DNA of 64,000 nucleotides, from NCBI RefSeq assembly GCF_007004735.1, contig NZ_SSNL01000005.1:124001-188000 (forward strand), written 5' to 3'. The position numbers were made by a program, and so were the translations under genes. Position 1 is the stretch's first letter. Each line of letters opens with the position of its first letter. The notes under the pieces were generated by a model. The model was not told the origin of the DNA. It worked only from the letters and a program-made list of their open reading frames with translations, and ran no database searches. Source of the stretch: Salinigranum halophilum (GTDB taxonomy: Archaea; Halobacteriota; Halobacteria; Halobacteriales; Haloferacaceae). Shown here piece by piece: positions 13,125 to 40,406 of this stretch.

Positions 13125-13179
13125 TTGGGGGAGAGAGGAGGTTTATCAGCGAAAACGGAGCCAACCCCTCGTAGCAGCC

Positions 13180-14716: not shown

Positions 14717-14781
14717 CCCCACAGCGACAGCGGTCCAGCAGTTCCCCCACCCCCGCCACCACGTCACCGTTCCCGTCCCTG

Positions 14782-14838
14782 CCCTCGCTTCCGGTCCCCG
14801 CCCTCGCTTCCGGTCCCCGCCCTCGCCTCCGGTCCCCG
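14782..14838 (+). repeat. Three tandem 19-base repeats
   Basis: CCCTCGCTTCCGGTCCCCG repeated three times without gaps (14782-14800, 14801-14819, 14820-14838), the third with one T-to-C change. It lies between the mini-protein and the lipoprotein gene, at the apparent boundary between accessory and chromosomal DNA. Confidence 0.85.
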
Positions 14839-14912
14839 TCTCCGACCTCGTCTCGTCGCCATCACAGACACCAGCGGAGACGACGCTGTCCTCACCTCGG
14901 GTCGACGACTGC

Positions 14913-15599
<687 letters not shown>

Positions 15600-15924
15600 A
15601 GCCAGTACGTGGTCAGCGACGGACATATCGGTAGCGGAGACACAAGCGCCCGTTTGTGTGATTCGGCGTGAGGGACGAGGTGGCGGGCGGGTCAGTTCCG
15701 ACGCACTCGACCGCCACGGACGGGGGTGCGCTCGCTGACAGGGTGGGAGTTGCGGGGAGCGAACACACCGGGAATCGGTCGAAAGGCGCTGTTGAAACCC
15801 TCAGGAATAGACAGCCACACTGTCTCGAATGAATTGGCTCGAGTGGCTCTGGACGACGATTCCAATCGACTTGCGCCCTCTGTTCGGTTCGGTCGAGATG
15901 AGCTACCTGAAATCGGTCAGGGGG
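15600..15924. other. Non-coding spacer
   Basis: No gene seen. One small inverted repeat ACACAA-N8-TTGTGT (15640-15659) lies about 40 bases before the lipoprotein start and could be an operator. Confidence 0.4.
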
Positions 15925-16449
15925 TCAATTGCCCTCTCGTTGCTGTTGTAGTGTTGCTTTTGCGCGTGCGACGTATGAGTTTGCAGACCAACTTCGGGCG
16001 TCGCTCATCTTCTCGAGAAACTGCTCCGCAGAATCGGGAGAGAGCACGTCGTTCCGCACGAGGGCAGTGAGTAGGATTGGCGTCGTCACGAGACGAGTGT
16101 CAACGAGTGATGCATGGATCACTGCGAGCCGGTTGAACTCGTCGCAGAGGAGTTGAACCGCGTTCACTTCGTTCGCCAACGTGACTGCCGCGTTCTCGCC
16201 ATCGTCCAGTGGAAACGTTTCGTCCAATTCGACAGGACGGGTATCGAACGCGTTCTTACGGTCAAGCACGGCTTGTGCTGCCTCTCCAGAGGCATCGTCG
16301 TAAGATGCTGTTTCAGCCAATTCTTCGAGAACGTGCTTGGGAAGCAGGAGTTTGTGTGACTCGAGAAGTATGTCGAGTGGGTTTGTCGTGGCGTCCGCAG
16401 CGGTTCCCAGACTAACGAGAGCGGAAGCATCAGCGACGATGCGCATCAT
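15925..16449 (-). CDS. PIN-domain toxin (VapC-like)
   Basis: A 174-residue protein. The PIN signature begins at once: 'RIVADASALVSLGTA' with the first acidic residue. 'KHVLEELAETASYDD' supplies the second, 'DDGENAAVTLANEV' the third, and 'VQLLCDEFNRLAVI' the fourth. PIN proteins are Mg-dependent RNases; in VapBC pairs they cut tRNA or rRNA. It follows the ribbon-helix-helix gene without a gap (antitoxin stop at 16450, toxin ATG at 16447-16449), the usual antitoxin-first order. It is longer than typical VapC (about 130 residues) because of a helical C-terminal extension. Confidence 0.75.
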   Translation of the reverse strand: MMRIVADASALVSLGTAADATTNPLDILLESHKLLLPKHVLEELAETASYDDASGEAAQAVLDRKNAFDTRPVELDETFPLDDGENAAVTLANEVNAVQLLCDEFNRLAVIHASLVDTRLVTTPILLTALVRNDVLSPDSAEQFLEKMSDARSWSANSYVARAKATLQQQREGN

Positions 16450-16770
16450 CTATGTGTCGGCTAACTCTTCTGCCACGTCGTCAACGAATGCCTCGCTCAA
16501 CTGCTGTTTCAGGAGACGAAAATTTGCGGCCTCCTCGTGACCGACGAGAGATTGTAACTCCTCAAAGGTAATGGCGTCGTCGTAGTACGCTTCTGCGACC
16601 TCCTGCTTTACTTCGTCAGAGTGCGCTGCGTCCCGAAGATACTCACGGAGAGCTGAGATGAGAATGTCCGTCCGGTCTGTCTCGAACACCGCTGCGAGAG
16701 TGTCAGCCCGATCCACCAGCCCTCTCGGTGCTCGGAACTGCACTCGCTTCTTCTCCGATTCGGAACTCAT
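16450..16770 (-). CDS. Ribbon-helix-helix antitoxin (VapB-like)
   Basis: A 106-residue protein from ATG 16770; longer in-frame starts add a sequence with no protein character. Residues 8-50 ('KKRVQFRAPRGLVDRADTLA', 'TDILISALREYL') form an RHH DNA-binding domain. The second half ('YYDDAITFEELQSLVG', 'EAANFRLLKQQL') resembles UPF0175/VapB-type regions that cap the toxin. It should repress its own operon together with the PIN protein. The A/T-rich 'ttgtaaaat' region at 16790-16800 upstream fits a promoter. Confidence 0.75.
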   Translation of the reverse strand: MSSESEKKRVQFRAPRGLVDRADTLAAVFETDRTDILISALREYLRDAAHSDEVKQEVAEAYYDDAITFEELQSLVGHEEAANFRLLKQQLSEAFVDDVAEELADT

Positions 16771-16923
16771 GTGTGTACATTGTGAGTGCGATTGTAAAAT
16801 ACTTGTCTCGCACAGCCGTCTGACCGTGTTCAATTCACCAGACCGTTTTGACCGACTCGCGCTGTGTATCCAGCACGGCTCAGACAAACTATCAGCAACC
16901 GAGGATTGCAACACGGCCGGTCG

Positions 16924-16929
16924 AAAAAA
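16924..16929 (-). terminator. Oligo-T terminator of the NifU-like gene
   Basis: On the minus strand 'ggccacg' is followed by TTTTTT about 25 bases after the stop at 16955. Confidence 0.45.
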
Positions 16930-16954
16930 CGTGGCCCGCTGGGGTGACGAGCGT

Positions 16955-17281
16955 TCAGAACGGCGGGTCGTAGTCCTCGTACTCTTCCATCTCCTCCATC
17001 TCGTCGATCTTCGACGGCATCACCGCGGCACGGGGGCCACCTGCGCGGACGACCTCCACCTCGGAGAGTTCGTCGATGCTCTCGGGGAGACGGCGCTCGA
17101 TGGCTTTCATCGTCATCGGGGCGATGCCACAGCCGGAGCACGCACCGCCGATGGCGACGGTCACCCGTCCAGCCTCCTCGTCGACGTCGCGAATCTCGAA
17201 GTTGCCACCGTGCTGTTGGATCTGTGGGACGTTGTTGCTGAGGTAGTTCCGCGTTCGTCGTTCGAGGCCTTGAGCGCTCAT
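16955..17281 (-). CDS. NifU-like (NFU-domain) Fe-S cluster scaffold
   Basis: A 108-residue protein from ATG 17281. It has the NFU domain with 'GACSGCGIAPMTMK', the C-x-x-C pair that bridges a [4Fe-4S] cluster between two subunits. It ends in an acidic Met/Glu tail. Role: carrying Fe-S clusters to apoproteins in the cytosol. ATG 17281 is preferred because a TATA box lies about 25 bases upstream, giving a leaderless message. A DtxR-type palindrome sits right behind that box, so iron control is likely. Confidence 0.85.
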   Translation of the reverse strand: MSAQGLERRTRNYLSNNVPQIQQHGGNFEIRDVDEEAGRVTVAIGGACSGCGIAPMTMKAIERRLPESIDELSEVEVVRAGGPRAAVMPSKIDEMEEMEEYEDYDPPF

Positions 17282-17301
17282 TACAGGTTCACCTATGGCC
17301 C

Positions 17302-17314
17302 AATATATCATAAA
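17302..17314 (-). promoter_or_regulatory. TATA box of the NifU-like gene
   Basis: On the minus strand 'tttatgatatatt'; its centre is about 26 bases before ATG 17281, as in leaderless haloarchaeal promoters. Confidence 0.6.
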
Positions 17315-17322
17315 TCTGTTTG

Positions 17323-17338
17323 TTTAGGTGGTCCTAAA
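17323..17338. promoter_or_regulatory. DtxR-type operator 1
   Basis: TTTAGG-TGGT-CCTAAA, a perfect 6-base inverted repeat. It lies directly upstream of the TATA box of the NifU-like gene, overlapping the expected BRE. The half-sites resemble TTAGG/CCTAA of DtxR/IdeR boxes. Confidence 0.65.
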
Positions 17339-17610
17339 ATCAGCGTCTACAGGCCACGAGACGACATATCTATATATCTATATCTAACTCGTACCTGATT
17401 TCTGGTATTTTTTCGTACGGCCTAAAACTCCGACGCGACCGGGTGCCGTGAGACGGCACGCGTGCGTGGGCGTCACCCCCATCCAGCGCGCAGGCCGCCC
17501 GAGTCCCGACGCACAGTGACACCGAACGACCACAGCCGTCGGTCCGCGGTCGTCAGGGCCGGCCCGAACAGCACCACCTCGCTCCGCCGCTCGAATCGCC
17601 TCGGCCGTCG
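17339..17610. other. Spacer between divergent iron-type promoters
   Basis: No gene seen. It includes a lone half-site 'cctaaaac' near 17420 and an A/T-rich run at 17366-17412. Confidence 0.45.
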
Positions 17611-17630
17611 TTTTTAGGAGTGCCTAAAAA
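17611..17630. promoter_or_regulatory. DtxR-type operator 2
   Basis: TTTTTAGG-AGTG-CCTAAAAA, 8-base arms. It lies just upstream of the TATA-like box at 17641-17648. Confidence 0.65.
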
Positions 17631-17640
17631 ATCGGTGGAA

Positions 17641-17648
17641 CTATATTG
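17641..17648 (+). promoter_or_regulatory. TATA-like box between operators 2 and 3
   Basis: 'CTATATTG'. Its centre is about 26 bases before ATG 17670, so the predicted transcript begins at or next to that ATG. Confidence 0.55.
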
Positions 17649-17665
17649 TTTTAGGTGCGCCTAAA
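17649..17665. promoter_or_regulatory. DtxR-type operator 3
   Basis: TTTTAGG-TGCG-CCTAAA, 6-base perfect arms. It lies between the TATA-like box and the predicted transcript start, where a bound repressor would block transcription. Centre-to-centre distance to operator 2 is about 37 bases. Confidence 0.65.
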
Positions 17666-17669
17666 GTGC

Positions 17670-17933
17670 ATGAGCCCGAGGACACGCGAGCACCGTGTCG
17701 CCACGTCGACGACGCTCGTCATCGGCTGTGCCGACCGGGACGTCGCGGGCAGCGCACGGATAGACGAGTCGCCCCCGCCAACAGCGCGACCTGTTGGGGC
17801 CGTCGACGGCGCGGTGGCTCCACGTCGCGGTCGAGTCCCCGGCCGTCCACCCGTCGTCGATGGCGACCGCCATCGCCCCGACGGCCGGGCCTCGACCTGC
17901 CGAGCGTTCGGTACCCCGGAGGAGTTGCGGTAA
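17670..17933 (+). CDS. Small open frame coupled to the DUF7260-like gene (uncertain)
   Basis: An 87-codon frame beginning 'MSPRTREHRVATSTTLVIGC' at the position where the leaderless transcript should start. Its TAA stop (17931-17933) is one base before the next ATG (17935), which would suit translational coupling. Against it: the sequence is rich in Pro, Arg and Gly without a recognisable fold, and high-GC DNA makes chance frames common. It may be a leader peptide or just leader sequence. Confidence 0.35.
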   Translation: MSPRTREHRVATSTTLVIGCADRDVAGSARIDESPPPTARPVGAVDGAVAPRRGRVPGRPPVVDGDRHRPDGRASTCRAFGTPEELR

Positions 17934-17934
17934 G

Positions 17935-18723
17935 ATGGCGCTCGAAACACACGTCCATCAGGCTCGGACGCGCGCGCAGGCGGAGTGGGAAGCGGTCGAC
18001 GCGAAGGTCGACGCGTACGACGCGTTCATCGGTCGAGTGACGAACCTCCCCACGGCCCCCGCGCCATCGGCCACACCGAGAGCCACGGCCGCTGCGGGGA
18101 CGCTCGCTCGGGGTGGGTCCGCGACCGACGACCGGTGTCGCAGGGTCCGGAAGGCGTTCGCCGAGACGGTGCGGCCCCACAGCATCGACGACGTGGACGG
18201 CCCCGAATCCGTCCTCGAGACCGTACAGTCAGAGTTCTCGGATTCGGTCGCGGCCGCGCTTGCACCGACGACCGAGACGTCGTTCACTCCCGAGCTCAAA
18301 CGGGTTGTCGTCTCGGTCGCCAGCACCCGCCGGACGGAGACCAAAGTCCTCCGCCGGGCGCTCGCTCGGGAGGACGACCGACTCGAGCGTGCCGGCGAGA
18401 CGGTGGACGGCGTCGTCGAGTGGATCACCCGTGCGAACGAGACGCCGTTGAGCGACCTCGGGTTCGCGGCGCTTCGGCGACGCCACGAGTCGCTCGCCCA
18501 GCACCGCGAGCGGTGTGAGCAACTCGCCCGTCGCCGTCAGGAGTTCGTCCGGGGGACGACGAACGAGGGCGTCGACGCCGGCATCCGCCACCAGCGTCTC
18601 GTCTCGTACCTCTACGAGGACTTCCCCGTCGCGTTCCCCGTCTTGGCGACGGTCGCCCGGCTCGACACGGTGTGTGCAACGTGCCAGCGGGCGGTTCGAC
18701 AGCATCTGGTGCGGAGGGTCTGA
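17935..18723 (+). CDS. DUF7260-like helical protein, candidate iron-regulon member
   Basis: A 262-residue, mostly helical, charged protein from ATG 17935 behind 'cggaggag'. The middle region ('CRRVRKAFAETVRPHS', 'FTPELKRVVVSVASTRR', 'LRRALAREDDRLERA') matches the pattern of haloarchaeal proteins I recall as DUF7260, whose role is unknown. The C-terminus contains 'LDTVCATCQRAVRQHL', a C-x-x-C motif. No membrane segment or enzyme motif is visible. Two DtxR-type palindromes bracket its promoter, so it is likely repressed or induced with metal status. Confidence 0.6.
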   Translation: MALETHVHQARTRAQAEWEAVDAKVDAYDAFIGRVTNLPTAPAPSATPRATAAAGTLARGGSATDDRCRRVRKAFAETVRPHSIDDVDGPESVLETVQSEFSDSVAAALAPTTETSFTPELKRVVVSVASTRRTETKVLRRALAREDDRLERAGETVDGVVEWITRANETPLSDLGFAALRRRHESLAQHRERCEQLARRRQEFVRGTTNEGVDAGIRHQRLVSYLYEDFPVAFPVLATVARLDTVCATCQRAVRQHLVRRV

Positions 18724-29484: not shown

Positions 29485-30714
29485 TCACCACGCCGCCTCG
29501 AGGACCTCGACGATTTCGTCCTCACTCGGGTCGACCCCGGCGGGCGTGAGCGTCATGAAGCCGTCCTCGTGGATGACCGCGGCAATCGACTCGAAGTCCG
29601 TACGGGCGAGGCCGTCGACCTCGCGGAGCCGCGTCGGGAGGCCCAGGTCGTCGCGGACGGCCGCGACAGCGTCGATGACGCCCGCGGCGAGTTCGTCGTC
29701 CGTCGCGCCCGCGCCGTCGAGGCCGAACCCCCGTGCCAGGAGGTCGCGCCGACCGTGGGCGTGGTCGAACACGAGTCCGAGCACGTGTGGCGCGAGGATG
29801 CCGTGGACGGTCCCCTGATGGACGTCGTAGTCGTGTGAGAAGCCGTGGCCGAACGCGTGGATGATCGAGGCCCGGTAGGCGTCGGGCGTCGAGAGGCCGT
29901 ACTGCGCGAGGACGACCCCGGAGACGGCCTCGTACAGTCGCTCGTCGTCCATCTCCTCGGACGGGAGCGTCTCGAACCCCGACTGCATCAGCGTCAGCGC
30001 CCGCATCGCGGTGGCGTCGGTCACCGGCGTGTTCGAAGGCGAGTACAGACACTCGACGGCCTTGTCGAAGCCGTTCATCGCCGAGGCGCACAGAACCGAT
30101 TTCGGGGTGGTATCGAACAGCGCTAGGTCGTAACAGAGCGCGGTCGGCATGAGCCGTCGGTCGCTGAGCGAGCCGCTCGGCACCTCGTGGTCCGGCCGCG
30201 CGCCGGGCGTAAGGGTGAGGTTGACGCCCGCGACGATCGAGAGGTCCGCCCCGGCGAGCGTCGTCGGGACAGCGACGATGGGGACCGCGTCACCGTCGTC
30301 GGCGACGGGGACGGTCCTCGTGTCGAGAGCGCGTTCGGCCGCGGTGTCGAGGTCGGGATGGCTACAGAGCGCGCTCACCACCTTCGCGGTGTCGAGGCTG
30401 CTCCCGCTGCCGACGGCGACGAGCGCTTCGATGCCTTCGTCGCGGAGACGGTGGGCGGCATCGAGCCCCGTCTTGAGGCACTTCTGTGGACTGGTCTCGG
30501 CGAACACACCTGCGAGTCGGTCGCCGAGGCCGGCCTCGACGGGGTCCATCACCCGGTGGTTCGACCCCACGTTCGTCCCGGTGACGACGAGTGCGCTGTC
30601 GAGGTCGTGTCGGGCGAGGACCTCGTCGAGGTCGGCGACGCAGCCGCGACCGCAACGGAGTTCCCCGGGCGCGTAGTCGAACCGGAACTGTCGGGCGGAC
30701 GCTGGAGTTGACAT
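29485..30714 (-). CDS. Iron-type (group III) alcohol dehydrogenase family protein
   Basis: A 409-residue protein from ATG 30714. 'LVAVGSGSSLDTAKVVSALC' is the GGGS-type NAD(P)-binding motif, and 'VPTTLAGADLSIVAGVNL' the conserved second block. The C-terminal helical domain holds 'IIHAFGHGFSHDYDVHQGTV', supplying His ligands of the metal site. The first metal block, usually D-x-x-x-H, reads 'GFDKAVECLY', with Glu where His is normal, so metal choice or activity may differ. Family members include maleylacetate reductases and alkanol dehydrogenases; with a ring-cleaving dioxygenase nearby, maleylacetate reduction is attractive but unproven. Confidence 0.8.
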   Translation of the reverse strand: MSTPASARQFRFDYAPGELRCGRGCVADLDEVLARHDLDSALVVTGTNVGSNHRVMDPVEAGLGDRLAGVFAETSPQKCLKTGLDAAHRLRDEGIEALVAVGSGSSLDTAKVVSALCSHPDLDTAAERALDTRTVPVADDGDAVPIVAVPTTLAGADLSIVAGVNLTLTPGARPDHEVPSGSLSDRRLMPTALCYDLALFDTTPKSVLCASAMNGFDKAVECLYSPSNTPVTDATAMRALTLMQSGFETLPSEEMDDERLYEAVSGVVLAQYGLSTPDAYRASIIHAFGHGFSHDYDVHQGTVHGILAPHVLGLVFDHAHGRRDLLARGFGLDGAGATDDELAAGVIDAVAAVRDDLGLPTRLREVDGLARTDFESIAAVIHEDGFMTLTPAGVDPSEDEIVEVLEAAW

Positions 30715-30780
30715 ACACCCTGTACCGGCGTCTCTCACATAAGCCCAACCCCGACCCCGGTGTCGCGGCGGCACGTTCGA

Positions 30781-31608
30781 CTATCCGAGGCCGGCGACGA
30801 ACGCGCGGAGTTCTCGGTTGAATCGCTCGGGCCGTTCCCAGAAGGGCGCGTGCCCGCTGTCGGGATACGTCGAACACGTCGCGTTCGGGAGCAGCCGTTC
30901 GGCCTCACGGGCCGCGTCGACCGAGACGACAGCGTCGTGGACGCCGTGGCTGAGGAGCGTCTGTGCGGAGAGCGAGTCGAGGAGGTCGAGGTACGAGACG
31001 GTCCGGTCACGCATCCCGTCACGGGCGGCCGGCGGGACGACGACGTTCCACCCGAGCATTCGATAGCGGTCCGCGGGGGCCAACTCCGTGTGGATGCACA
31101 GATCGACCAGCCGTTCGAGCGCCGCCACGCTCGTCTCGACGTCCGTCGAAACGATGTCGGGGAAGAGGTCGACGTATCCCGGGGTGAGCCAGTCGTTCGT
31201 CCGTTCGGTACCGATACCGCAGACGATGCCGACGAGATTCAACCCGGCCACGCGGTCGGTCCCGTAGTGAGCGAGATAGTCGAGCGTGACGAGCGAGCCG
31301 TACGACCAGCCGACGATGACGACGTCGTCGAGTCCCAGCGTGTCACAGACGGCGTCGACGTCGTCGGCCCACACTCGGGCGTCGTTGTACGCGTCCCCCG
31401 CAGGCGGCTTCTCCGAGGAGCCGTGACCGCGGAGGTCCATCGCGACGAGGCGGAACTCGCCGGCGAGGTCGGCGTCGAGTTGCGCCTCCCACGAGAGATG
31501 GCTCTGGGAGTAACCGTGGACGAAAAGGACGGGACGGGCGTCTCGCGGTCCCGTCTCGACGACGTGCAGATTGGGGTCGTCGTCGCGGGCGACGGTGTGT
31601 TCGCGCAT
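30781..31608 (-). CDS. Alpha/beta hydrolase
   Basis: A 275-residue protein from ATG 31608. 'VLFVHGYSQSHLSW' carries the oxyanion-hole loop, 'IVGWSYGSLVTL' the nucleophile Ser elbow, 'SHGVHDAVVSVD' the acid and 'PDSGHAPFWERPE' the His. Most like soluble esterase/haloperoxidase-type enzymes ('MDLRGHGSSEKP'). Divergent from the CocE-type hydrolase with 94 bases between, so both may share a control region. Confidence 0.85.
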   Translation of the reverse strand: MREHTVARDDDPNLHVVETGPRDARPVLFVHGYSQSHLSWEAQLDADLAGEFRLVAMDLRGHGSSEKPPAGDAYNDARVWADDVDAVCDTLGLDDVVIVGWSYGSLVTLDYLAHYGTDRVAGLNLVGIVCGIGTERTNDWLTPGYVDLFPDIVSTDVETSVAALERLVDLCIHTELAPADRYRMLGWNVVVPPAARDGMRDRTVSYLDLLDSLSAQTLLSHGVHDAVVSVDAAREAERLLPNATCSTYPDSGHAPFWERPERFNRELRAFVAGLG

Positions 31609-31673
31609 ACCGCTCCTTGCGCCCGGAGTGACGTGACTGTTGGGCCGCCCACACCGCGCCACGGGGGCGACAC

Positions 31674-31680
31674 TTTATAT
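31674..31680 (+). promoter_or_regulatory. TATA box of the CocE-type hydrolase gene
   Basis: 'TTTATAT' centred 26 bases before ATG 31703. This spacing argues for ATG 31703 over ATG 31679, which would overlap the box. Confidence 0.6.
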
Positions 31681-31702
31681 GTCGGGGCGGAATCTGGTCG
31701 GC

Positions 31703-33601
31703 ATGGCTTCGGCACCGGAGTACGACGTTCACGCTGCGTTCGACGTGATGGTCGAGATGCGCGACGGGGTTCGGCTGGCGACGGATATCTACCGACCCGC
31801 GGACCCCGGGACGGGCGAGGTAGTCGACGAGCCGTTGCCCGCGCTGCTCGACCGGACCCCCTACGACAAGCGAAGCAACCTCGAGCGACACGGCGAGTGG
31901 TTCGCCTCGCGGGGCTACGTCGTCGCCATCCAGGACGTGCGGGGGCGGTTCGAGAGCGAAGGCGACTTCTTCATCTTCGTCGACGAGGCCGAAGACGGCT
32001 ACGACACCGTCGAGTGGCTGGCCGAGCAGCCGTACTGCGACGGGCAGGTTGGCACGCTCGGGACGTCGTACGGCGCGTGGGTCCAGTCGGCGCTGGCGAC
32101 ACAGGACCCCCCGCATCTCGAGGCGATGTTCGTCAACCAGGGCGCTTCGAACGGGTGGGAGGCGACGTTCCGGCACAACGGGGCCTTCGAACTCCGGTGG
32201 CTCTGCTGGGCGTTCGTCCACGGCGCCGGCTTCGGGGCGGAGTCGCTCGCCGACCTCGAGACACAGGCACACTTCGCGAACGTCGACACGCGCGACGTAC
32301 TCGCGAACGGGCCGCTCCGTCGGGGGCAGTCGCCGCTCCGACGCGCACCGTCGTACGAACGGTGGCTGTTCGACGTCATGACCACCGAGGGGGACTCGGA
32401 GCTGTGGGACGAACCCGGCCTCGACTTCGCGGCGCACTACGACGCGTCGGCCGACGTGCCGACGGTGTACGCGGGCGGCTGGTACGACTCCTACGCGAAG
32501 GCGACGTGTGACGCCTTCGAGGCGCTGAACGCGCAGAAAGAGAGCGACCACTTCCTCCTCGTGGGGCCGTGGACGCACGGCTGGGAGTCGTATCCGCTCC
32601 CGTCGTGGTCCTCCCCGCACGCCGGCGAGGTCGCCTTCGGCGACGACTGTCTCCTCGAGTATCAACAGCTTCGCCTCCGCTTTTTCGACCACTACCTGAA
32701 GGGGAAGGCGACGTGGGCCGACCAGCCGACGGTCCAGTACTGGCGCATGGGCGGCGGCGACGGCCGTAAGACGGGGGCGGGTCGACTGTTCCACGGCGGC
32801 GAGTGGACGACAGCGGAGGAGTGGCCGCCGTCGGGAACCACCCTCACGAGCTACTACGCACACCCCGACGGGACGCTCCGAACGGAGCGGCCGAGCATCC
32901 CCGAGGGATCCGAAGACGCCTCGACGACGTATCGGTTCGACCCGACCGACCCCGTACCCACGCTCGGCGGCAACTGCTCGTCGTACTCGGCGTTCGAACA
33001 GCGGTCGGAGACGCTCGTGCAGTATCCGCTCGCGGAGCGAGAGACCGTGAACATCACCGGGAGCGGCGGGTACGACCAGCGGACGCGACCGGAGACGTTC
33101 GGGGCCACAGAACCGTACAGTCCAGTGGAAGAGCGCGATGACGTGCTCGTCTTCCGGACGCCGCCGCTCGACCGCCCGGTCGAGGTCGTCGGCCCCATCC
33201 GCGTTCGAGTGTACGGCGAGACCGACGCGCCCGACACCGACTTCACGGCGATGCTCCTCGACGAATACCCCCCCTCGGAAGCGTTCCCGAACGGCTTCGC
33301 GCTGAACCTCTCCGACTCCATCTGTCGGGCGCGCTACCGTGGCTATCGGCGGGAACCCGACCCGATCACTCCCGGCGAAGTGTACGCGTTCGACATGGAG
33401 CCGTATCCGACAGCCACCGTGTTCGAGAGGGGGCATTCGATCCGTCTTGACGTGTCCTCGTCGAACTTCCCCCGGTACGACGTCAACCGCAACACGGGCG
33501 AACTGTACGGCGGGCGGGCGTACCGCGTGGCGCACAACACGGTCCACCACAGCCACGCCCACCCGACCCACGTCGAGTTACCCGTCCAACCGGTCGAATA
33601 A
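31703..33601 (+). CDS. CocE/NonD-family serine hydrolase (X-Pro dipeptidyl-peptidase type)
   Basis: A 632-residue enzyme. 'VEMRDGVRLATDIYRP' opens the catalytic domain as in CocE; 'VGTLGTSYGAWVQ' holds the nucleophile Ser, 'VYAGGWYDSYAKA' the Asp and 'LVGPWTHGWESY' the His. From about residue 370 the C-terminal jelly-roll ('RPVEVVGPIRVRVYGETDAP', 'HSIRLDVSSSNFPRYDVN') is complete. Members hydrolyse esters or amides of acylated compounds, including Xaa-Pro peptides, cocaine and glutaryl-cephalosporin. Leaderless by its TATA position. Probably releases an aromatic or acyl substrate in this catabolic island. Confidence 0.85.
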   Translation: MASAPEYDVHAAFDVMVEMRDGVRLATDIYRPADPGTGEVVDEPLPALLDRTPYDKRSNLERHGEWFASRGYVVAIQDVRGRFESEGDFFIFVDEAEDGYDTVEWLAEQPYCDGQVGTLGTSYGAWVQSALATQDPPHLEAMFVNQGASNGWEATFRHNGAFELRWLCWAFVHGAGFGAESLADLETQAHFANVDTRDVLANGPLRRGQSPLRRAPSYERWLFDVMTTEGDSELWDEPGLDFAAHYDASADVPTVYAGGWYDSYAKATCDAFEALNAQKESDHFLLVGPWTHGWESYPLPSWSSPHAGEVAFGDDCLLEYQQLRLRFFDHYLKGKATWADQPTVQYWRMGGGDGRKTGAGRLFHGGEWTTAEEWPPSGTTLTSYYAHPDGTLRTERPSIPEGSEDASTTYRFDPTDPVPTLGGNCSSYSAFEQRSETLVQYPLAERETVNITGSGGYDQRTRPETFGATEPYSPVEERDDVLVFRTPPLDRPVEVVGPIRVRVYGETDAPDTDFTAMLLDEYPPSEAFPNGFALNLSDSICRARYRGYRREPDPITPGEVYAFDMEPYPTATVFERGHSIRLDVSSSNFPRYDVNRNTGELYGGRAYRVAHNTVHHSHAHPTHVELPVQPVE

Positions 33602-33615
33602 GGGACGCGGCCGCA

Positions 33616-34023
33616 TCAGAACAGGCCGACGTTGACGGCGTACGCCCACGGCTCGCTCGCCGACGCGAGGAGGACGAGAGCCCCGCCGAGCAGGCCGACG
33701 TTCTTGAGGAAGTGGTTGAACTCGTTCTGTCGGTCCTCGTCGGAGGCCGCCCAGAAATCGTGCATCTTGGGCGAGGAGACGAGGAGGAACACGGCGATGG
33801 CGCCGACAGAGACGACGGGGAACGCCCCGAGGATGATGCCGAGGCCCCCGAGCAGCATCATCACGCCGGAGGCGACGACCATGAACCCGGCCGCAGGGAC
33901 GCCCTTGAACTCCGCGTAGCCCGTCACGGCCTCGTTGTTCGCGAAATGGTTGTACCCGTTGTACAGGAACAGGAGACCGAAAAGGACGCGCCCGAGCAGC
34001 AGGAACTCTCCTTCGAGCGCCAT
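33616..34023 (-). CDS. DoxX-family membrane protein
   Basis: A 135-residue protein with four membrane segments. 'LGRVLFGLLFLYNGYNHFAN' is the DoxX family start, followed by 'YAEFKGVPAAGFMVVASGVM'. Members include DoxD-type quinol oxidase subunits and MhqP/CatD of quinone-stress operons. It converges with the CocE-type gene (14 bases between stops). Its nearness to a VOC dioxygenase matches the MhqO-MhqP pairing of Bacillus. Confidence 0.8.
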   Translation of the reverse strand: MALEGEFLLLGRVLFGLLFLYNGYNHFANNEAVTGYAEFKGVPAAGFMVVASGVMMLLGGLGIILGAFPVVSVGAIAVFLLVSSPKMHDFWAASDEDRQNEFNHFLKNVGLLGGALVLLASASEPWAYAVNVGLF

Positions 34024-34189
34024 CAGCGACCCTCCCGTGAGAGGGCGAGCGAGACGCTGTACTGACCGCTGGGATACGTGTTCGAGTGCATCATCGTATC
34101 AGTCACGACCCACGACGAAAACGGTTTCTATCACCGGGGCGACGCGGGACGGTGTCGGTCGGACACACCCCCGTACACACCAGCGGGGA

Positions 34190-34197
34190 TTATATAC
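34190..34197 (+). promoter_or_regulatory. TATA box of the FAH-family gene
   Basis: 'TTATATAC' centred about 28 bases before ATG 34222, so the message is leaderless; this decides the start against longer frames. Confidence 0.6.
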
Positions 34198-34221
34198 GAG
34201 CGACCGATACTGGTTCTCACG

Positions 34222-35106
34222 ATGCGCTTAGGACAGTTCAGTGCGACAGCGGACGGCCCAGCGTGGTGTGGTGCGGTCGTCGACGATTCGGTGGTGAACC
34301 TCTCGGTCGCCGGTGAGGCGGCGGGTGTCTCGCTTCCCGAGGAAACGGCGGCGGTACTCGGCCAGTGGAACTGGGAGGAGAAGGTCTCGATGGCTGTCGA
34401 GTACGCCACGGAGCACGGCGTCGGTGTCGAGGCACGCGACGATCTCGTCCAGCACGAACCGGTCTCGAACCCCCAGAAGATCGTCTGCGTCGGGCTGAAC
34501 TACATCGACCACGCCGAGGAGAGCGGCCAGGACGTCCCCGAGGAGCCGATGCTGTTCTCGAAGTTCCCGACGTGTGTCAACGGCCCCGGCGGCGCGATCA
34601 CATGGGACCCCGAGTACACCGAGCAGGTCGACTACGAGGCCGAACTCGTGCTCGTCGTCGGCCGAGAGGCACGCGACGTCGACGCCGACGACGCCCGCGA
34701 CTACATCGCCGGCCTCACCGTCGGAAACGACGTCTCCGCGCGCGACCTCCAGTTGAGCGACGAGCAGTGGGTCCGCGGGAAGAGTCTGGACACCTTCGCG
34801 CCCATCGGGCCGGAGCTCGTCACGCTGGACGAGGTCGACGACCCTCACGACCTCGACGTCTGGACGGAACTGGACGGCGAGCGCCTGCAGGACTCGTCGA
34901 CGTCGAACCTCATCTTCGGCATCGACGAGCTCGTCGCGTTCTGTAGCCGAGCGTTCACCCTCGAACCGGGCGACCTCGTCTTCACCGGGACGCCGCCCGG
35001 CGTCGGCGTCTTCCGCGACCCGAAGGTCCTCCTCAACGACGGCGACGAGATCACCGTCGGCGTCGAGGGCGTAGGCGAACTGACCAACGTCTGTCGACAC
35101 CGCTAG
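34222..35106 (+). CDS. Fumarylacetoacetate-hydrolase-family enzyme
   Basis: A 294-residue protein. The metal site is intact: 'VDYEAELVLVVGREARDV' gives the Glu-x-Glu pair and 'LTVGNDVSARDLQ' the Asp. 'KIVCVGLNYIDHAEESG' and 'LVFTGTPPGVGVF' are hallmark blocks. Members hydrolyse or decarboxylate C-C bonds of beta-keto acids late in aromatic catabolism (acylpyruvase, 2-oxohept-3-ene-dioate hydratase/isomerase). Its place between hydrolases and a dioxygenase suggests it handles a ring-cleavage product. Confidence 0.85.
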   Translation: MRLGQFSATADGPAWCGAVVDDSVVNLSVAGEAAGVSLPEETAAVLGQWNWEEKVSMAVEYATEHGVGVEARDDLVQHEPVSNPQKIVCVGLNYIDHAEESGQDVPEEPMLFSKFPTCVNGPGGAITWDPEYTEQVDYEAELVLVVGREARDVDADDARDYIAGLTVGNDVSARDLQLSDEQWVRGKSLDTFAPIGPELVTLDEVDDPHDLDVWTELDGERLQDSSTSNLIFGIDELVAFCSRAFTLEPGDLVFTGTPPGVGVFRDPKVLLNDGDEITVGVEGVGELTNVCRHR

Positions 35107-35133
35107 TGCGGTCGGGCCTGGGTCGCCCCGGGC

Positions 35134-36135
35134 TCAGTCGTCGAGCCCGAAGACCCGCATCGGGTTCTCCAGCACCACTTTTCGGATCGCGTCCACGTCG
35201 ATACCGAGCCGGTAGAGCTCGAAGATGGCCTTCTTGACCGAGAAGACGTCCGTCCGGAGGATGTTCGCACAGTCGGTGTCCATCATCACCCGGTCGGGGC
35301 CGTACTCGCGAATCGCGTCCGCGACGTCGGTGGCGTCGACGCCCGTCAGCCACGGGTACCCCACAGTGAAGCTGACGTGGCAGTCGGTCTCACCGAGCAG
35401 GTAGTCGACGTTGTTCGGGTCGGCGTGAGAGGCGACGACCCGCTCCTCGGGAAGCCCGGCGGCGGCGGCCGCGGCGACGTCGATCTTCACCGCCTCCAGC
35501 GCGGGGTTCTCTCCCGTGAGGACCGGCTCCCGTGCGAGCGAGACGTTGCTCTCGAAGCCGGGGAGGCCGACGCCGTCGCGGTAGCGCGGACCGTCGTCGA
35601 TGTCGTTCGGGGTGTGGAGGATGACGGGAAGGTCGTGGTCGGCGGCGAGTTCCATCTGCGCCTGGACGACCGCCCGCTGTTCGTCGAGCGCCCACGCCTC
35701 CGCGTGCTGTGCAGGGGTGACGCCCGTCTCGCCGAGGGCGACGACGTCGTCCAGTCGGCAGTACTCGGCCATCGCCGCCAACAGGTCGTCGGGGTCTTCG
35801 ATTCGGACGCCCGTGTGGATACCGAGCGCCAGGTTGGTCTCGAAGAAGTGCTGGCGCTCGATAGCGCGCTTGCGGTTGATGACGTCGTCCCACAGGTAGC
35901 GGATATCCTCGCACCGGACCGGCTTGTACGGCGTCCAGTGATAGCCCGAGGCGACCATCACCATCGACCGACAACCGGCGACGGCGTATCGTTCGCGGTC
36001 GGCGAACGAGAGGGTGTGCGCGTGGTTGTGACAGTCGACCCACGGGAGCGTGAGCAGCGACGTGGGCGGGTCGAACGACGCGTCGTCGAGATACGCCTCG
36101 TCTGTCGGGCGACGGGTGGGGTAGTTCGAGGACAT
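35134..36135 (-). CDS. TatD-type metal-dependent hydrolase
   Basis: A 333-residue protein from ATG 36135. Metal ligands fit the TatD/amidohydrolase barrel: 'WVDCHNHAHTLSF' (H-x-H), 'VALGETGVTP' (Glu), 'PVILHTPNDI' (His), 'VVASHADPNNVDY' (His), 'RVMMDTDCANI' (Asp). TatD proteins can be DNases, but in a catabolic setting a lactonase or decarboxylase-like role is possible. 140 bases separate its start from the divergent dioxygenase gene. Confidence 0.75.
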   Translation of the reverse strand: MSSNYPTRRPTDEAYLDDASFDPPTSLLTLPWVDCHNHAHTLSFADRERYAVAGCRSMVMVASGYHWTPYKPVRCEDIRYLWDDVINRKRAIERQHFFETNLALGIHTGVRIEDPDDLLAAMAEYCRLDDVVALGETGVTPAQHAEAWALDEQRAVVQAQMELAADHDLPVILHTPNDIDDGPRYRDGVGLPGFESNVSLAREPVLTGENPALEAVKIDVAAAAAAGLPEERVVASHADPNNVDYLLGETDCHVSFTVGYPWLTGVDATDVADAIREYGPDRVMMDTDCANILRTDVFSVKKAIFELYRLGIDVDAIRKVVLENPMRVFGLDD

Positions 36136-36234
36136 ACTGCACGCACAGGCCACGAGAACTTGAACGTTCACCCTCCAGCGCACGTGCCGTCCGGTTCGGA
36201 CAGGGCGACGGGACGTTGTACTCAAAAAACAAAA

Positions 36235-36244
36235 CTATTTTTAG
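36235..36244 (+). promoter_or_regulatory. TATA-like box of the dioxygenase gene
   Basis: 'CTATTTTTAG' within an A/T-rich patch, centred about 36 bases before ATG 36276. The adjoining ACTC...GAGT ends of this patch (36230-36248) form a loose inverted repeat. Confidence 0.4.
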
Positions 36245-36275
36245 TGAGTCACCCAAGTGCACGTTGTAGTATACC

Positions 36276-37229
36276 ATGCCAGACGTAAACGGTATCCACC
36301 ACGTGACGGCGTTCTGTGACGATCCGCAGGAGAACTACGACTTCTTCACGAACGTGCTCGGACTGCGCTTCGTCAAGCGAACCGTCCGCTTCGACGTGCC
36401 GGAGAAGATCTATCACCTCTACTACGGCGACGAGATGGGCACCCCCGGAACCGTCATCACCTACTTCCCGATGACGAACATGCCGATGGAGGAGGGGATG
36501 GTCGGCAAGGGGATGATGAGCGCCGTCGGACTGACGATTCCCGCGGGGTCCGTCGGCTACTGGACGGACCGGTTCGAGGACCACGACGTTGAGTACACCG
36601 TCGAAGAGCGATTCGGCGAGACGGTCGTCGGCTTCACCGACCCCGACGGGCTCCCGTACGAACTCGTCACGGGTGAGTCCGACATCGAGCCGTGGGACGG
36701 TGGCGACGTGCCCGCCGAACACGGGATCAGAGGGATGTACAACGTGACGCTCCACTCGTCGGACCCCGCGGGGACGATGGACGTCCTCGAGACGCTCGGC
36801 TGGGACCGCATCGGCGAGGCGACGCATCCACAGGCCGGCGACCGCATTCGGTACGAGGCACCGGAAGGTGGCCCGTGCGCGCGGAAGGTCGACGTCCTCA
36901 TCCGCCCGAACGCGCCGACCGGCGTCATGGGCATCGGGACGTACCTCCACGTCGCGTTCCAGGTCGAGAACGACTGGGAGCAAGACCGCGTGAGCGACAT
37001 CCTCCGGGAGAACGGTTACATCACCACCTCGACGAAGGACCGCGACTACTTCCACTCGCGGTACATCACCGAGCCCGGCGGAGCCGTCTTCGAGTTCGCG
37101 ACGATGGGGCCCGGCTTCACCCTGGACCAAGAGCCCGCGGAGTTCGGCGAGGAGTTGAAGGTTCCCGACTGGCTCGACGTCGACGTCGAACGCATCGAGG
37201 AGATGCTCCCGCCGCTAAAGACGAACTGA
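36276..37229 (+). CDS. Two-domain VOC ring-cleaving dioxygenase (LinE/MhqO-like)
   Basis: A 317-residue protein with two glyoxalase/VOC modules (about 5-140 and 150-285). Likely metal ligands are His8 or His9 ('NGIHHVTAF'), His in 'GTYLHVAFQV' and Glu in 'GGAVFEFATMGPGF'. Length and motifs fit the LinE/MhqO group of hydroquinone-type extradiol dioxygenases, which open hydroquinone rings with Fe(II). In Bacillus MhqO helps detoxify quinones; in sphingomonads LinE opens (chloro)hydroquinone. Substrate here is inferred from the family and neighbours only. Confidence 0.8.
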   Translation: MPDVNGIHHVTAFCDDPQENYDFFTNVLGLRFVKRTVRFDVPEKIYHLYYGDEMGTPGTVITYFPMTNMPMEEGMVGKGMMSAVGLTIPAGSVGYWTDRFEDHDVEYTVEERFGETVVGFTDPDGLPYELVTGESDIEPWDGGDVPAEHGIRGMYNVTLHSSDPAGTMDVLETLGWDRIGEATHPQAGDRIRYEAPEGGPCARKVDVLIRPNAPTGVMGIGTYLHVAFQVENDWEQDRVSDILRENGYITTSTKDRDYFHSRYITEPGGAVFEFATMGPGFTLDQEPAEFGEELKVPDWLDVDVERIEEMLPPLKTN

Positions 37230-37263
37230 GCCGCCACCGAGGGCGCGACTCGCCCCGGCGTGG

Positions 37264-38082
37264 CTACTCGCGCGGGCAGAACTTCCCGACCGGACCGTGC
37301 GAGTGAGTGATGTTCAGTTCGAGTTCGGTGACGACGCTCGATAACAGGTCGACGAGTTCGCCCTCGATGCGGTCGTCACTCATCCGGTGTCGCGGACCGG
37401 CAACCGAACACGCGCCGACGACTGTGTCGTCCGGGGCGAGCGGGACGGCGACGGCGACGACGCCGCTGGTGCTCTCTTCTCTGTTGACGGCGAAGCCGCG
37501 TTCACGAACGGTTTCCAGCTCCGCGAACAGCTCCGCCTCGTCGGTGATGGTGTTCTCCGTCGCGCTCGGGAGCCCCTCGGACGCGACGATCGATTCGGCC
37601 TCCGAGGGAGGGAGGTGTGCGAGGAGCGTCTTCCCTCCCGCGGTCTGATGGAGGTGGAGCCGCCGACCCAGCCGGGTCCGCGTGAAGACGCCCTGCGTCC
37701 CGTTCTCGCGGAACAGCGTGATGACCCGACCCTTCTCTCGAATCGCGAAGTGTGCGACCTCGCCGGTCTCGTCGGCCAGCTCTCGCATCTGTGGTTTGAT
37801 CAGCTCCGACCCGACGTACCGCGACCGGAGCCACCCGCCGTAGTCCAGAAAGCGGAAGCCGAGGTGGTAGTCGTTCCCCTCTTTCACAACGAGGTCGTGC
37901 GCCGTGAGCGTCGTGAGGTGTTTGTACACCGCTCCCTTCGAGAGCCCCGTCCGGTCGACGACGTCCGTCACGCGACCCCCACCCATCTCCCGGAGGGCCT
38001 CGACGATCGTGAGCGACGTCTCGACTGCTTTGACTCCCCCAGTCGACGGGGAGTCCGTCCGGGTGTCGGCGTCTTCGGTCAT
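37264..38082 (-). CDS. IclR-family transcriptional regulator
   Basis: A 272-residue protein. ATG 38082 is preferred (a GTG lies 6 bases earlier). Residues 20-75 are the winged helix ('AVETSLTIVEALREMGGGRV', 'TGLSKGAVYKHLTTL'). Residues 90-260 are the GAF-like effector domain ('TAGGKTLLAHLPPSE', 'FAVNREESTSGVVAVAVPL', 'VVGACSVAGPRHRM'). It converges with the dioxygenase gene. IclR proteins sense aromatic or carboxylic ligands and usually control adjacent catabolic genes, so it should command this island. Confidence 0.9.
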   Translation of the reverse strand: MTEDADTRTDSPSTGGVKAVETSLTIVEALREMGGGRVTDVVDRTGLSKGAVYKHLTTLTAHDLVVKEGNDYHLGFRFLDYGGWLRSRYVGSELIKPQMRELADETGEVAHFAIREKGRVITLFRENGTQGVFTRTRLGRRLHLHQTAGGKTLLAHLPPSEAESIVASEGLPSATENTITDEAELFAELETVRERGFAVNREESTSGVVAVAVPLAPDDTVVGACSVAGPRHRMSDDRIEGELVDLLSSVVTELELNITHSHGPVGKFCPRE

Positions 38083-38124
38083 GAACACACCTACGAACGC
38101 TCGTCGGTAAGTAATTTACTCCTG

Positions 38125-38150
38125 AGAAACGAAATGTCTTATTCGTTTCT
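38125..38150. promoter_or_regulatory. Candidate IclR autoregulatory operator
   Basis: AGAAACGAA (38125-38133) and TTCGTTTCT (38142-38150), a perfect 9-base inverted repeat with 8-base spacer. It is just upstream of 'AGTAAATTAC' (38109-38119), the likely TATA region on the minus strand for the IclR gene. Confidence 0.55.
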
Positions 38151-39158
38151 TACTCGTAGAATATACGGAGGTGAACGACTGACACCGAGGGGGGTGTCGG
38201 TCGTGGACCACGTCGCGAACGAACCGGCATCGCCGACGTGTGTGCGTGACACGGTCAGCTCCGAATCCCGAGAGCGAAGCCAACGGAGACACTCCAGCCG
38301 AAGCGGGTCGTCGGACAGCGTCTTGACGAGTCGACCGCGGCGTCCAGGGGTGGGTTTCTATCGATAGAATCACAGAGACGAACGCGTTGGCGCATTTTTA
38401 TTCGAACTAGTCTATTCAATTCCGATTTTATTAGAGAGAAACACGAGTTTCGACCGAGGTGCGCCAAGATTCGTGTTAACTGAGCTACTGGAGACGGTAC
38501 TCACCGTACAACGCTGTCGAGTCACCTGGTCAGCGAGCGACTCTCCCGCGGGGGCGAGACGAGCAGCCGCTCACGACGAACGACATGGCGGTCGGGGGGC
38601 GAGAAGGACCAGTCTGAATTACACTGCTATTGCTGTAATATCTTAGTTCTGCTGGGAGGACGAACATCGGACGAGCTGGACGTGACGAATAAAAATAATT
38701 GTATAAAATGGAGACGTGAGACACGCGTTGTCTCGAACCACGGAGGGTCGTGGCTGCACAGCGAACGTGTGGAGTCGAGGGAGCCGCGTGATGGATGTCG
38801 GGGTGGACATCGTTATGACAATGGCACGGATACAAAACCTAGAAGGGACGATATAGCGTGTTTTCAGTGCCTCATCGTGAAGAAACACGGAGCGGCGTGG
38901 GGAGGGAAAACTCACATTCGAGCGAGCGGCCGACGGTTCGTCGGCGAGTGAGTCATGTCGGCAAGAAAACTGCTGATTCGGGGCGTCACGCGTCTAGAAT
39001 CGACCATCGACGCAACAGGAGAGCGGCGACGTGAGAGGTCACACGTGCTTCGAGGAGAGTGGCACTCAAAGCGTGGCCGCGACGCCGATTCGTGTCCCGA
39101 GTCCACAGAGACGAACACGACGAGCGGGTGCGCGAGAGTACAAGAAAAAATATTTTAA
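38151..39158. other. One-kilobase non-coding region
   Basis: No gene supported on either strand. It has A/T-rich patches (38390-38440, 38630-38710), a 14-base perfect palindrome TTCTATCGATAGAA (38356-38369) and a poly-A/TATA-like run before the MFS gene (39140-39157). Short open frames here lack haloarchaeal codon bias. Confidence 0.5.
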
Positions 39159-40406
39159 GTGCTATCGCCGACGGCAGCGGGAGATATACAGACTCAAACG
39201 CCCGCCCACCCGAGCGAGCGTGTGGAGCGTCACACCCGAGCGTCGAGGTCGAGCGAGGAACGCCTGACCGGTGGGCAGGCCGGCCGACTGCTCATGACGC
39301 TCTCTGTCGGCTGGGCGGTCCTCCAGGCCGGTCGGTTCGTCCTCTCGCCGCTCCTCCCGACCATCATCACCGACCTCGGAATCACGGAGGCGACGGCGGG
39401 GCTCGCGTTCACGGCGCTCGGGGGCGTCTACGCGGTCGCACAGTATCCGAGCGGACGGCTCTCGGACCGGTGGACGCGGACCACCCTCATCGTCCCTGGG
39501 CTCGGAGTCCTCGTCGGGGGCTTCCTCCTCTACGGGGTGGCCGCGTCGTACCTCCTCTTCGTCGTCGCGTGTGTCGTCGTCGGCCTCGGCAAGGGGCTCT
39601 TCGCCATCCCCTCGCGGGCGCTGGTGTCGGACCGCTACGTCGAGCGGCGCGGGCGGGCGCTGGGTGTGTTTGCCGCTGGCACCGACGTCGGCGGCCTCCT
39701 CGCCTCTGGCGTCGCGGTGGTCGTCCTGTCGTCGGCGACGTGGCACGCGCCGTTCGTTCCCATCGCCGTCGCGCTCGGCCTCGTGACCCTGCTGTTCGTG
39801 CGGTGGACCGACGAGCCGTATCGGGTCGAGCGCACCGACCTCGAACTCGCGACGACGGTCCGGCGGCTCGTCGCCTCCAGCGGCCAGCGCCGGACGCTCG
39901 TCGCGTACGCCCTGTTTTATTTCATGGTCGGCGGCTTCATCACCTTCTTCCCGACGTATCTCGCGGGGGCGAAGGGGTTCTCCGCGAGCCTCGCCTCGGT
40001 GGCGTTCGCCGTCGTCTTCGCCGTCGGATTCGGTGTCAAGCCCCTCGCGGGCGACCTCTCGGATCGCTTCCGACGGCAGGACGTCGCCGCCGCCGGACTC
40101 GGCGTGGCGGCGCTGGCGCTCGTGACGCTCGTCTTCGTCGAGTCCACCGTCCTGACCTGGGTGACCACGCTCGTCCTCGCCATCGGCTACAAGACGCAGT
40201 TCCCGCTCGCGGACGCCATCGTGATGGACGCAGCACCCGACGGCGGGATGGGTGCGGACCTCGGCGCGGCGCGAGCGCTCTTCCTCGCGGCGAGCGCCGT
40301 CGGCCCCGCCTACGTCGGTATCGTCGCGACGTACGCGGGCTACGCCGTCGCGTTCGGGAGCCTCGCGGGGTGTCTCCTCGTGGCGGCGCTGCTCGTGTGG
40401 CGGTGA
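39159..40406 (+). CDS. MFS transporter
   Basis: A 415-residue frame; the true start may be GTG 39222 or ATG 39294, since the first membrane helix begins at 'RLLMTLSVGWAVLQAGRFVL'. About 12 membrane segments. 'YPSGRLSDRWTRTTLIV' is the MFS loop-2/3 signature (G-x-L-x-D-R), repeated weakly as 'KPLAGDLSDRFRRQDV' after helix 8. An importer or drug-type exporter; the substrate is not evident. Not obviously linked to the neighbours. Confidence 0.8.
   Translation: MLSPTAAGDIQTQTPAHPSERVERHTRASRSSEERLTGGQAGRLLMTLSVGWAVLQAGRFVLSPLLPTIITDLGITEATAGLAFTALGGVYAVAQYPSGRLSDRWTRTTLIVPGLGVLVGGFLLYGVAASYLLFVVACVVVGLGKGLFAIPSRALVSDRYVERRGRALGVFAAGTDVGGLLASGVAVVVLSSATWHAPFVPIAVALGLVTLLFVRWTDEPYRVERTDLELATTVRRLVASSGQRRTLVAYALFYFMVGGFITFFPTYLAGAKGFSASLASVAFAVVFAVGFGVKPLAGDLSDRFRRQDVAAAGLGVAALALVTLVFVESTVLTWVTTLVLAIGYKTQFPLADAIVMDAAPDGGMGADLGAARALFLAASAVGPAYVGIVATYAGYAVAFGSLAGCLLVAALLVWR

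Follow-up and report, generated by a model that had tools for sequence, protein, structure and literature searches.

The island described here comprises eight genes at 29485-38082 of a 64,000-nt stretch of Salinigranum halophilum DNA (the window; C4:124001-188000 of source genome G000, 4.2 Mb in 11 contigs). Its closest described counterparts are the Mhq systems of Bacillus and Paenibacillus, the type I hydroquinone 1,2-dioxygenases LinE and PcpA, the homogentisate and gentisate pathways and, for one hydrolase, the AF1765 protein. We propose that the island is a catabolic gene set by which haloarchaea degrade a para-diol aromatic of the hydroquinone type, or a close analogue of one, and give this reading a probability of about 0.5. 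Its enzymes belong to known families and show two unusual features, a clade of VOC enzymes with Leu224 and a metal-ligand-poor dehydrogenase of the iron-type alcohol dehydrogenase (Fe-ADH) family; the island is real and partly conserved.

In the homogentisate and gentisate pathways, ring cleavage is coupled to a FAH-family hydrolase, and the ring dioxygenases are of the cupin fold. The FAH-family partner is common to the island, whereas the predicted ring-cleaving enzyme here is a VOC protein. With AF1765, which is TatD-like, and with the phosphotriesterase-like lactonases, the TatD protein of the window shares the fold and the set of metal-binding residues.

An earlier reading of this DNA from its letters and open reading frames (the sequence-only reading) likened the island to an archaeal Mhq-type system. 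The likeness to Bacillus (mhqNOP/mhqED) and Paenibacillus (mhqPOD) holds for the MhqO-type VOC gene with a DoxX gene nearby; we take B. subtilis MhqP to be a DoxX protein, and its equivalence to DoxX of the window is putative. It ends with the other genes, because the island has IclR, FAH, TatD and CocE, while profile scans found no MhqD-type Abhydrolase_2, nitroreductase or MarR protein among the eight (the hydrolase of the window is an Abhydrolase_1). A probably better Mhq candidate by gene content is another locus of the same genome, L083 (G000:C4:5300-25200), where a second VOC copy, one of two further copies in the genome, adjoins an MhqD-like Abhydrolase_2 gene. The only BKACE match of the genome (about 4 kb from that VOC gene) and an IclR gene (45% identity to that of the window) also lie there within about 5 kb; BKACE was therefore not counted with the genes of the window island. 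In excerpts of PMC12673573, the Paenibacillus mhqPOD genes are proposed to be catabolic and are induced by a lignin fragment, the recombinant MhqO is inactive, and MhqP is called an azoreductase.

LinE and PcpA resemble the island in the full-length VOC family, the His-His-Glu ligands and the presence of an Fe-ADH-family reductase gene nearby (PcpE). They differ from it in that the window VOC is 34.5% identical to LinE and has Leu beside a ligand, its reductase lacks the maleylacetate reductase signature, and FAH and TatD are added. The pcpE and pcpA genes were found on one fragment, pcpEMAC (PMC5741723, excerpt), and an Agrobacterium gene annotated as mhqO, which is a poor match (15-17%) to other mhqO genes, adjoins a maleylacetate reductase gene (PMC12673573, excerpt). 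Judged by titles and abstract openings of the papers listed, searches of the open-access literature yielded no description of VOC-based hydroquinone-type ring cleavage or of a TatD/FAH pathway in haloarchaea.

A VOC subfamily linked to a TatD/FAH core

The VOC protein is a full-length homologue of MhqO, PcpA and LinE. Its best match in the PDB is B. subtilis MhqO (3oaj, 6e-61), with PcpA (4huz, 8.2e-43) also found, and alignment to LinE and a Bacillus homologue shows the metal ligands H9, H225 and E273 intact, which bears out the LinE/MhqO-like enzyme of the sequence-only reading. The ligands given for 3OAJ are His11, His218 and Glu266 (PMC12673573, excerpt). Among the 24 aligned rows of its subfamily (genes of three genomes are counted twice), H225, E273, Thr11, Arg256 and Tyr263 occur in all and H9 in 21; the three subfamily rows and seven other rows that lack H9 were probably given starts called too short. 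Position 224, adjoining the metal ligand His225, is Leu in 24/24 subfamily rows, whereas it is His in all 29 others, including LinE and the Bacillus homologue. The 24 rows form one clade on a long branch with a support of 100/100.

This clade was placed in its genomic context by a survey of 194 Halobacteria genomes, in which genes were counted as linked when their starts lay within 6 kb; the pair counts exclude the window genome. The expected pair counts are crude, being calculated as if all genomes were uniform and 3.5 Mb long, and relatives among the genomes are not independent samples. Pair and subfamily counts hold among the matches listed: 150 of at least 150 for VOC, 85 of 127 for Fe-ADH, 139 of at least 150 for DoxX, 50 of 51 for TatD, and every listed match for FAH, CocE, the hydrolase and IclR. 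VOC occurs in 138 of the 194 genomes (E<=1e-60), Fe-ADH in 124 (E<=1e-40), TatD in 46 (E<=1e-30) and FAH in 45 (E<=1e-70). Among these matches, the VOC subfamily has nine genes in eight genomes (65-100% identity; next best <=54%), and each of the nine has a TatD gene within 6 kb, as does none of the 141 other VOC genes.

Most of the eight genes belong together. TatD and FAH adjoin in 35 of the 38 other genomes that share both (0.16 expected), VOC and TatD are linked in 7/26 (0.17), VOC and Fe-ADH in 25/60 (0.28), Fe-ADH and the alpha/beta hydrolase in 3/5 (0.02), and this hydrolase and TatD in 3/6. VOC and DoxX are linked in 15/77 genomes (0.38 expected), one of which (G074) has the window-type VOC, and a clustering of called genes placed a DoxX-cluster gene in 38 of 49 TatD stretches, mostly of 20 kb. 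The conserved clustering that the sequence-only reading looked for thus exists for most genes (TatD-FAH, VOC-TatD, VOC-FeADH and FeADH-hydrolase); for CocE and IclR, linkage was seen in few relatives. Of its proposed VOC, DoxX and IclR synteny, the survey recovered the VOC-DoxX part and not the IclR part. One counterpart is a row in Haloarcula japonica (L258) with FAH, DoxX, FAH, TatD, CocE (65%), VOC (83%) and, at its end, IclR (65%), interrupted by genes for a substrate-binding protein and a Zn-dehydrogenase. Another, in Haladaptatus DYF46 (L194), reads Fe-ADH (45%), TatD, FAH, DoxX, FAH, TatD, CocE (64%).

The TatD protein has an invariant metal set (H36, H38, E136, H174, H237 and D288 in 39/39 rows). 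Its AF2 model (pLDDT 88.7, pTM 0.88) was closest in the VIA comparison to AF1765 (3guw; Z 27.5, root-mean-square deviation 1.9, 233 aligned), followed by a phosphotriesterase homologue (Z 24.2) and the VmoLac lactonase (Z 24.0), with lactonases at about 24 and ties among them. AF1765 is the best fold match of the model; a common fold proves no function, and the lactonase- or esterase-like role that we assign to TatD is tentative. TatD did not reach the NCBIfam cut-offs for TatD subfamilies or equivalogs (30 of 206 bits for TIGR00010), and none of the NCBIfam equivalog models listed for the FAH protein was matched at cut-off; a FAH enzyme of the L-rhamnonate type (NF053535) was ruled out at 215.8 of 500 bits. 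We found no characterised member of the TatD subfamily, whose close relatives came only from haloarchaeal and two "uncultured archaeon" records in the pattern scan and the plasmid records.

The pattern scan of contigs gave 75 named loci (L193-L267), which cannot serve as a test of the VOC-TatD linkage, having been found through TatD; it used two peptide patterns only, so distant relatives could be missed. All 75 are archaeal, with haloarchaeal names apart from the two "uncultured archaeon" records. Likewise, TatD matches in plasmid records came from haloarchaea in 12/12 cases, with an identity of only 24-27% in three. Around the same TatD/FAH core, two mutually exclusive types of locus occur. 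Thirteen of the 75 have the subfamily VOC, and none of these has a PRK08204-type amidohydrolase or a BNR protein, which are present in 37/62 and 42/62 of the commoner loci without VOC. The latter also carry CoA-transferase III (31/62) and thiolase (20/62). FAH is found in 5/13 loci with VOC and 40/62 without it, and TetR in 4/13 and 32/62.

Compact VOC arrangements are known as well: the co-directional DoxX-FAH-TatD-VOC of L075, followed by a convergent TetR gene; the likewise co-directional TetR-FAH-VOC-TatD in L072 and on a Halorussus vallis plasmid; and VOC/FeADH-hydrolase/TatD in L076 and L077. Certain related haloarchaeal loci have CoA-transferases, a CoA-acylating aldehyde dehydrogenase and a branched-chain-type ABC transporter. 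On a Haladaptatus halobius plasmid, an island of about 25 kb combines VOC, CoA-transferases, a short-chain dehydrogenase/reductase, a hydrolase, a branched-chain-type ABC transporter and two Fe-ADH genes with methylmalonate-semialdehyde dehydrogenase, a luciferase-like oxidoreductase, riboflavin kinase, ribB, TatD and IclR. VOC and TatD lie about 20 kb apart there, so that one of the 24 VOC subfamily rows has no close TatD neighbour.

Genes for a luciferase-like monooxygenase and a CTP-dependent riboflavin kinase, mostly with RibB, also lie near Fe-ADH/TatD in L194-L196, L262 and L270. L196 and L270 are the same record; L194 and L196 were judged by hmmscan, Haloarcula L195 and Halegenticoccus L262 by N-termini only. 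In these Haladaptatus, Haloarcula and Halegenticoccus loci the combination apparently serves FMN supply for a flavin-dependent step. The monooxygenase of the Haladaptatus locus was matched at 1e-60 in 1/194 genomes, the window genome not being among them.

The Fe-ADH-type dehydrogenase

In the dehydrogenase, N214, K218, H286 and Q300 replace the Asp, His, His and His of a FucO-type enzyme, and they are invariant in 24/24 aligned relatives. Maleylacetate reductases function without metal, maybe owing to the replacement of Asp by Asn or Arg (PMC5125639, excerpt), and Asn at the former Asp ligand is also found in 3/3 bacterial enzymes annotated as maleylacetate reductases. The likeness does not extend further. 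In PcpE both His172 and Lys238 are essential, and the motif is LHHKLCH (PMC5741723, excerpt); the corresponding columns hold His and Lys in the three maleylacetate reductase rows, and Lys and Ala/Ser in 8/8 haloarchaeal rows. In profile ranking FucO (1e-38) comes ahead of 3jzd (9.5e-33), a maleylacetate reductase (PMC5125639, excerpt), and of the maleylacetate reductase 3hl0 (6.7e-26). A maleylacetate reductase proper, which the sequence-only reading had allowed for, was therefore ruled out, since His172/Lys238 and the LHHKLCH signature are absent. The loss of the metal ligands together with the failing signature points to a separate Fe-ADH subfamily, probably metal-free, whose role as a reductase is tentative.

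Of the 23 VOC/Fe-ADH loci of other VOC clades, 13 also carry a BKACE-cluster gene (PF05853), with NCBIfam matches below cut-off to 3-keto-5-aminohexanoate cleavage enzyme and 3-oxoadipate:acetyl-CoA acetyltransferase. Enzymes that cleave 3-oxoadipate belong to the BKACE family, which speaks for a catabolic role of the VOC loci, though the scanned proteins fall short of the cut-off for that model. A small Cys-rich protein (L156:8929-9153 and 12 cluster members) accompanies BKACE beside such pairs; the three members read have 63-82 aa and start with MTCP or VTCP, and one scanned member had no Pfam or NCBIfam match.

Proposed pathway and competing explanations

The reading of the island as a catabolic module for a hydroquinone-type compound is carried by the observed gene content, clustering, active-site residues and clade structure, from which we infer the following steps. 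The VOC protein, as an Fe(II)-type enzyme with a 2-His-1-Glu site, would split the ring to give a 1,3-dicarbonyl product resembling hydroxymuconic semialdehyde, a tautomer of which is itself a beta-dicarbonyl. The FAH-family enzyme may hydrolyse a C-C bond of this product, as its relatives do with acylpyruvate-like or fumarylacetoacetate-like compounds, and the TatD-like hydrolase could act on a lactone or ester form of the substrate or product. The Fe-ADH protein, probably metal-free, would play a part like that of a maleylacetate reductase by reducing C=C or C=O in the product of ring fission. Ester-bound diol might be released, or intermediates cut, by CocE and the alpha/beta hydrolase; DoxX would be a membrane redox partner against quinone, and IclR may sense the substrate. 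Cleavage of an alkyl-hydroquinone beside the alkyl group, giving a beta-diketone for FAH, was dropped as a specific proposal: the enzyme of Sphingomonas TTNP3 opens methylhydroquinone adjacent to a ring H (PMC3222310, excerpt), which leaves alkyl-side cleavage as merely one option.

Several observations weigh against this reading. The change of His to Leu beside the metal ligand may alter or abolish hydroquinone cleavage. At 41 of 50 TatD places among the matches listed no subfamily VOC is nearby, so TatD/FAH need not process a VOC product. The dehydrogenase shares the Asp-to-Asn replacement with maleylacetate reductases and lacks the residues essential in PcpE. Among the matches listed, the window-type VOC accounts for just two of the 25 VOC-FeADH pairs (in G082 and G100) and other VOC clades for 23, and TatD is linked to Fe-ADH in just 2/18 genomes and to DoxX in just 1/33 at the survey cut-off for DoxX. 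Window-type Fe-ADH occurs in just 2 of the 13 named VOC loci (L245 and L247), and the sister genome G081 has no Fe-ADH match at 1e-40 and has its FAH and CocE relatives elsewhere in the genome. CocE and IclR showed no linkage in the 194 genomes by the 6-kb criterion, and aldehyde dehydrogenase, CoA-transferase, thiolase and BKACE are absent among the eight genes. Full catabolism of a hydroquinone-like compound, as the sequence-only reading had it, thus survives in part: the gene set looks catabolic, not purely protective, and its working as a hydroquinone-type ring-cleavage pathway stands at about even odds.

Alternatively, the TatD/FAH core may degrade a non-aromatic compound (e.g. a heterocyclic, lactone or terpenoid-type one), the Leu224 VOC being a recruited non-hydroquinone enzyme and one of two alternative entry steps. 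This would fit the predominance of TatD loci without VOC and their amidohydrolase, BNR, CoA-transferase III and thiolase genes in the numbers given above, the luciferase-like monooxygenase, riboflavin kinase and RibB added at certain of them, the Leu224 of all 24 subfamily rows and the Foldseek list for the TatD model, which has isoaspartyl dipeptidases and allantoinases right after AF1765. We nevertheless regard it as rather unlikely, since the VOC site is otherwise conserved, from H225, E273, Thr11, Arg256 and Tyr263 throughout the subfamily to H9 in 21 rows, and since the pairing of VOC with Fe-ADH is like that of pcpA with pcpE. Quinone or electrophile detoxification of the Mhq kind, with VOC removing quinols, the redox work falling to DoxX and the dehydrogenase, and IclR as quinone sensor, appears improbable to us. 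In its favour, the VOC protein matches MhqO best among PDB entries, the VOC-DoxX neighbours noted above include a window-type VOC among the matches listed, and MhqD-like cluster members occur in 5 of the 23 VOC/Fe-ADH loci of other clades (L164, L168, L170, L174 and L175, where the gene stands with DoxX and HxlR; one such protein and an HxlR were checked). However, most Mhq-like companions go with VOC clades other than that of the window, this genome has its MhqD-like gene at L083 next to a different VOC copy, FAH, TatD, CocE and the CoA-linked neighbours of certain relatives suggest catabolism, and the regulator is IclR, not MarR. It is more improbable still that the neighbourhood is partly accidental, i.e. 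that CocE and IclR merely adjoin a true VOC-TatD-FAH(-DoxX) and hydrolase-FeADH core: the two are unlinked in the survey, although CocE relatives (62-72%) are present in 28/194 genomes, but both recur with VOC, TatD, FAH and DoxX in L258, and CocE recurs in L194 beside TatD, FAH and DoxX.

Within the proposed hydroquinone-type pathway, the shared TatD/FAH core might receive its substrate through oxidative ring opening by VOC, the case here, or in other species through an amidohydrolase and BNR module whose ring opening is perhaps hydrolytic. A broader model, which we offer only tentatively, would have interchangeable ring-opening modules, a Leu-retooled VOC or amidohydrolase/BNR, serving one TatD/FAH core found so far in haloarchaea only, with a new metal-free Fe-ADH (Asn/Lys/His/Gln) doing the maleylacetate-reductase-like step with different catalytic residues. 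If true, haloarchaea possess a distinct lower aromatic pathway, the VOC clade is a natural experiment on tuning the metal surroundings in type I hydroquinone dioxygenases, the Fe-ADH subfamily offers a metal-free comparison with maleylacetate reductases, and a TatD subfamily gains a function.

Layout, regulation and surroundings

Profile searches confirmed the eight genes and the family assignments of the sequence-only reading. Gene calls and start sites come from our own codon-model caller, and some starts are wrong.

Table 1. Genes and putative regulatory repeat of the island (window positions)
Feature	Position	Strand	Basis
Fe-ADH-fold dehydrogenase/reductase, probably metal-free	29485-30714	-	PF00465/PF25137
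Alpha/beta hydrolase (Abhydrolase_1; esterase/haloperoxidase type)	30781-31608	-	Family profile matches
CocE/NonD ester hydrolase	31679-33601	+	TIGR00976, 357 bits, above cut-off
DoxX membrane protein	33616-34023	-	PF07681
FAH-family C-C hydrolase (proposed role)	34222-35106	+	PF01557, 2.5e-72, profile 1-212 of 214
TatD-like metal hydrolase (amidohydrolase superfamily), haloarchaeal subfamily	35134-36135	-	Profile matches, invariant metal set, fold
VOC ring-cleaving dioxygenase (predicted), TatD-linked subfamily, Leu224 replacing His	36276-37229	+	Profile, residues, clade
IclR-family regulator	37264-38082	-	PF01614 and PF09339
Inverted repeat 5' of iclR, possible autoregulatory operator	38170-38209	.	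17-nt arms, 82%, 6-nt spacer

Gene orientation alternates, Fe-ADH and the alpha/beta hydrolase being the sole co-directional neighbours, and divergent promoter regions lie at about 31.6, 34.1 and 36.2 kb. The island is therefore a set of short units around divergent promoters, and a single IclR-controlled operon was dropped, a shared operator not being established either. The inverted repeat upstream of iclR was not found at other promoters of the island: its pattern with <=3 mismatches gave one match in the window (0.18 expected; at least one in 17 of 100 shuffles). One exact half-site lies at 34151-34160 in the DoxX/FAH region, with half-sites in the window at chance level (20 vs 18.3 expected). 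Words shared by the promoter regions are a weak signal (at W=12 they score one match more than any of 25 single-base shuffles; at W=16, 1/25 shuffles reached their value). Motif, repeat and half-site scans thus established no operator common to the DNA upstream of iclR and the three divergent promoter regions. No NCBIfam model listed for the IclR protein was matched at its cut-off (132.6 of 284.75 bits for TIGR02431, PcaR/PcaU/PobR). The IclR control assumed by the sequence-only reading was not established by these scans, and 36 of the 75 named TatD loci have TetR; we retain IclR control as a hypothesis.

The 1.2 kb upstream of iclR (38083-39293) have lower GC, no gene by the gene caller and two longer inverted repeats, at 38112-38163 and 38170-38209. 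Farther away, window positions 1-18000 have a GC of 0.54-0.64 against mostly 0.64-0.73 in most of the remainder, and contain a gene for a 1410-aa protein with a TrwB match just under cut-off (6609-10841) and one with an NrS-1 polymerase HBD domain (11901-13124); this may be a plasmid-like element that has integrated, with an end near 18 kb. At 50800-53394, one 864-aa frame holds both COX1 and COX3 domains, i.e. a fused terminal oxidase subunit.

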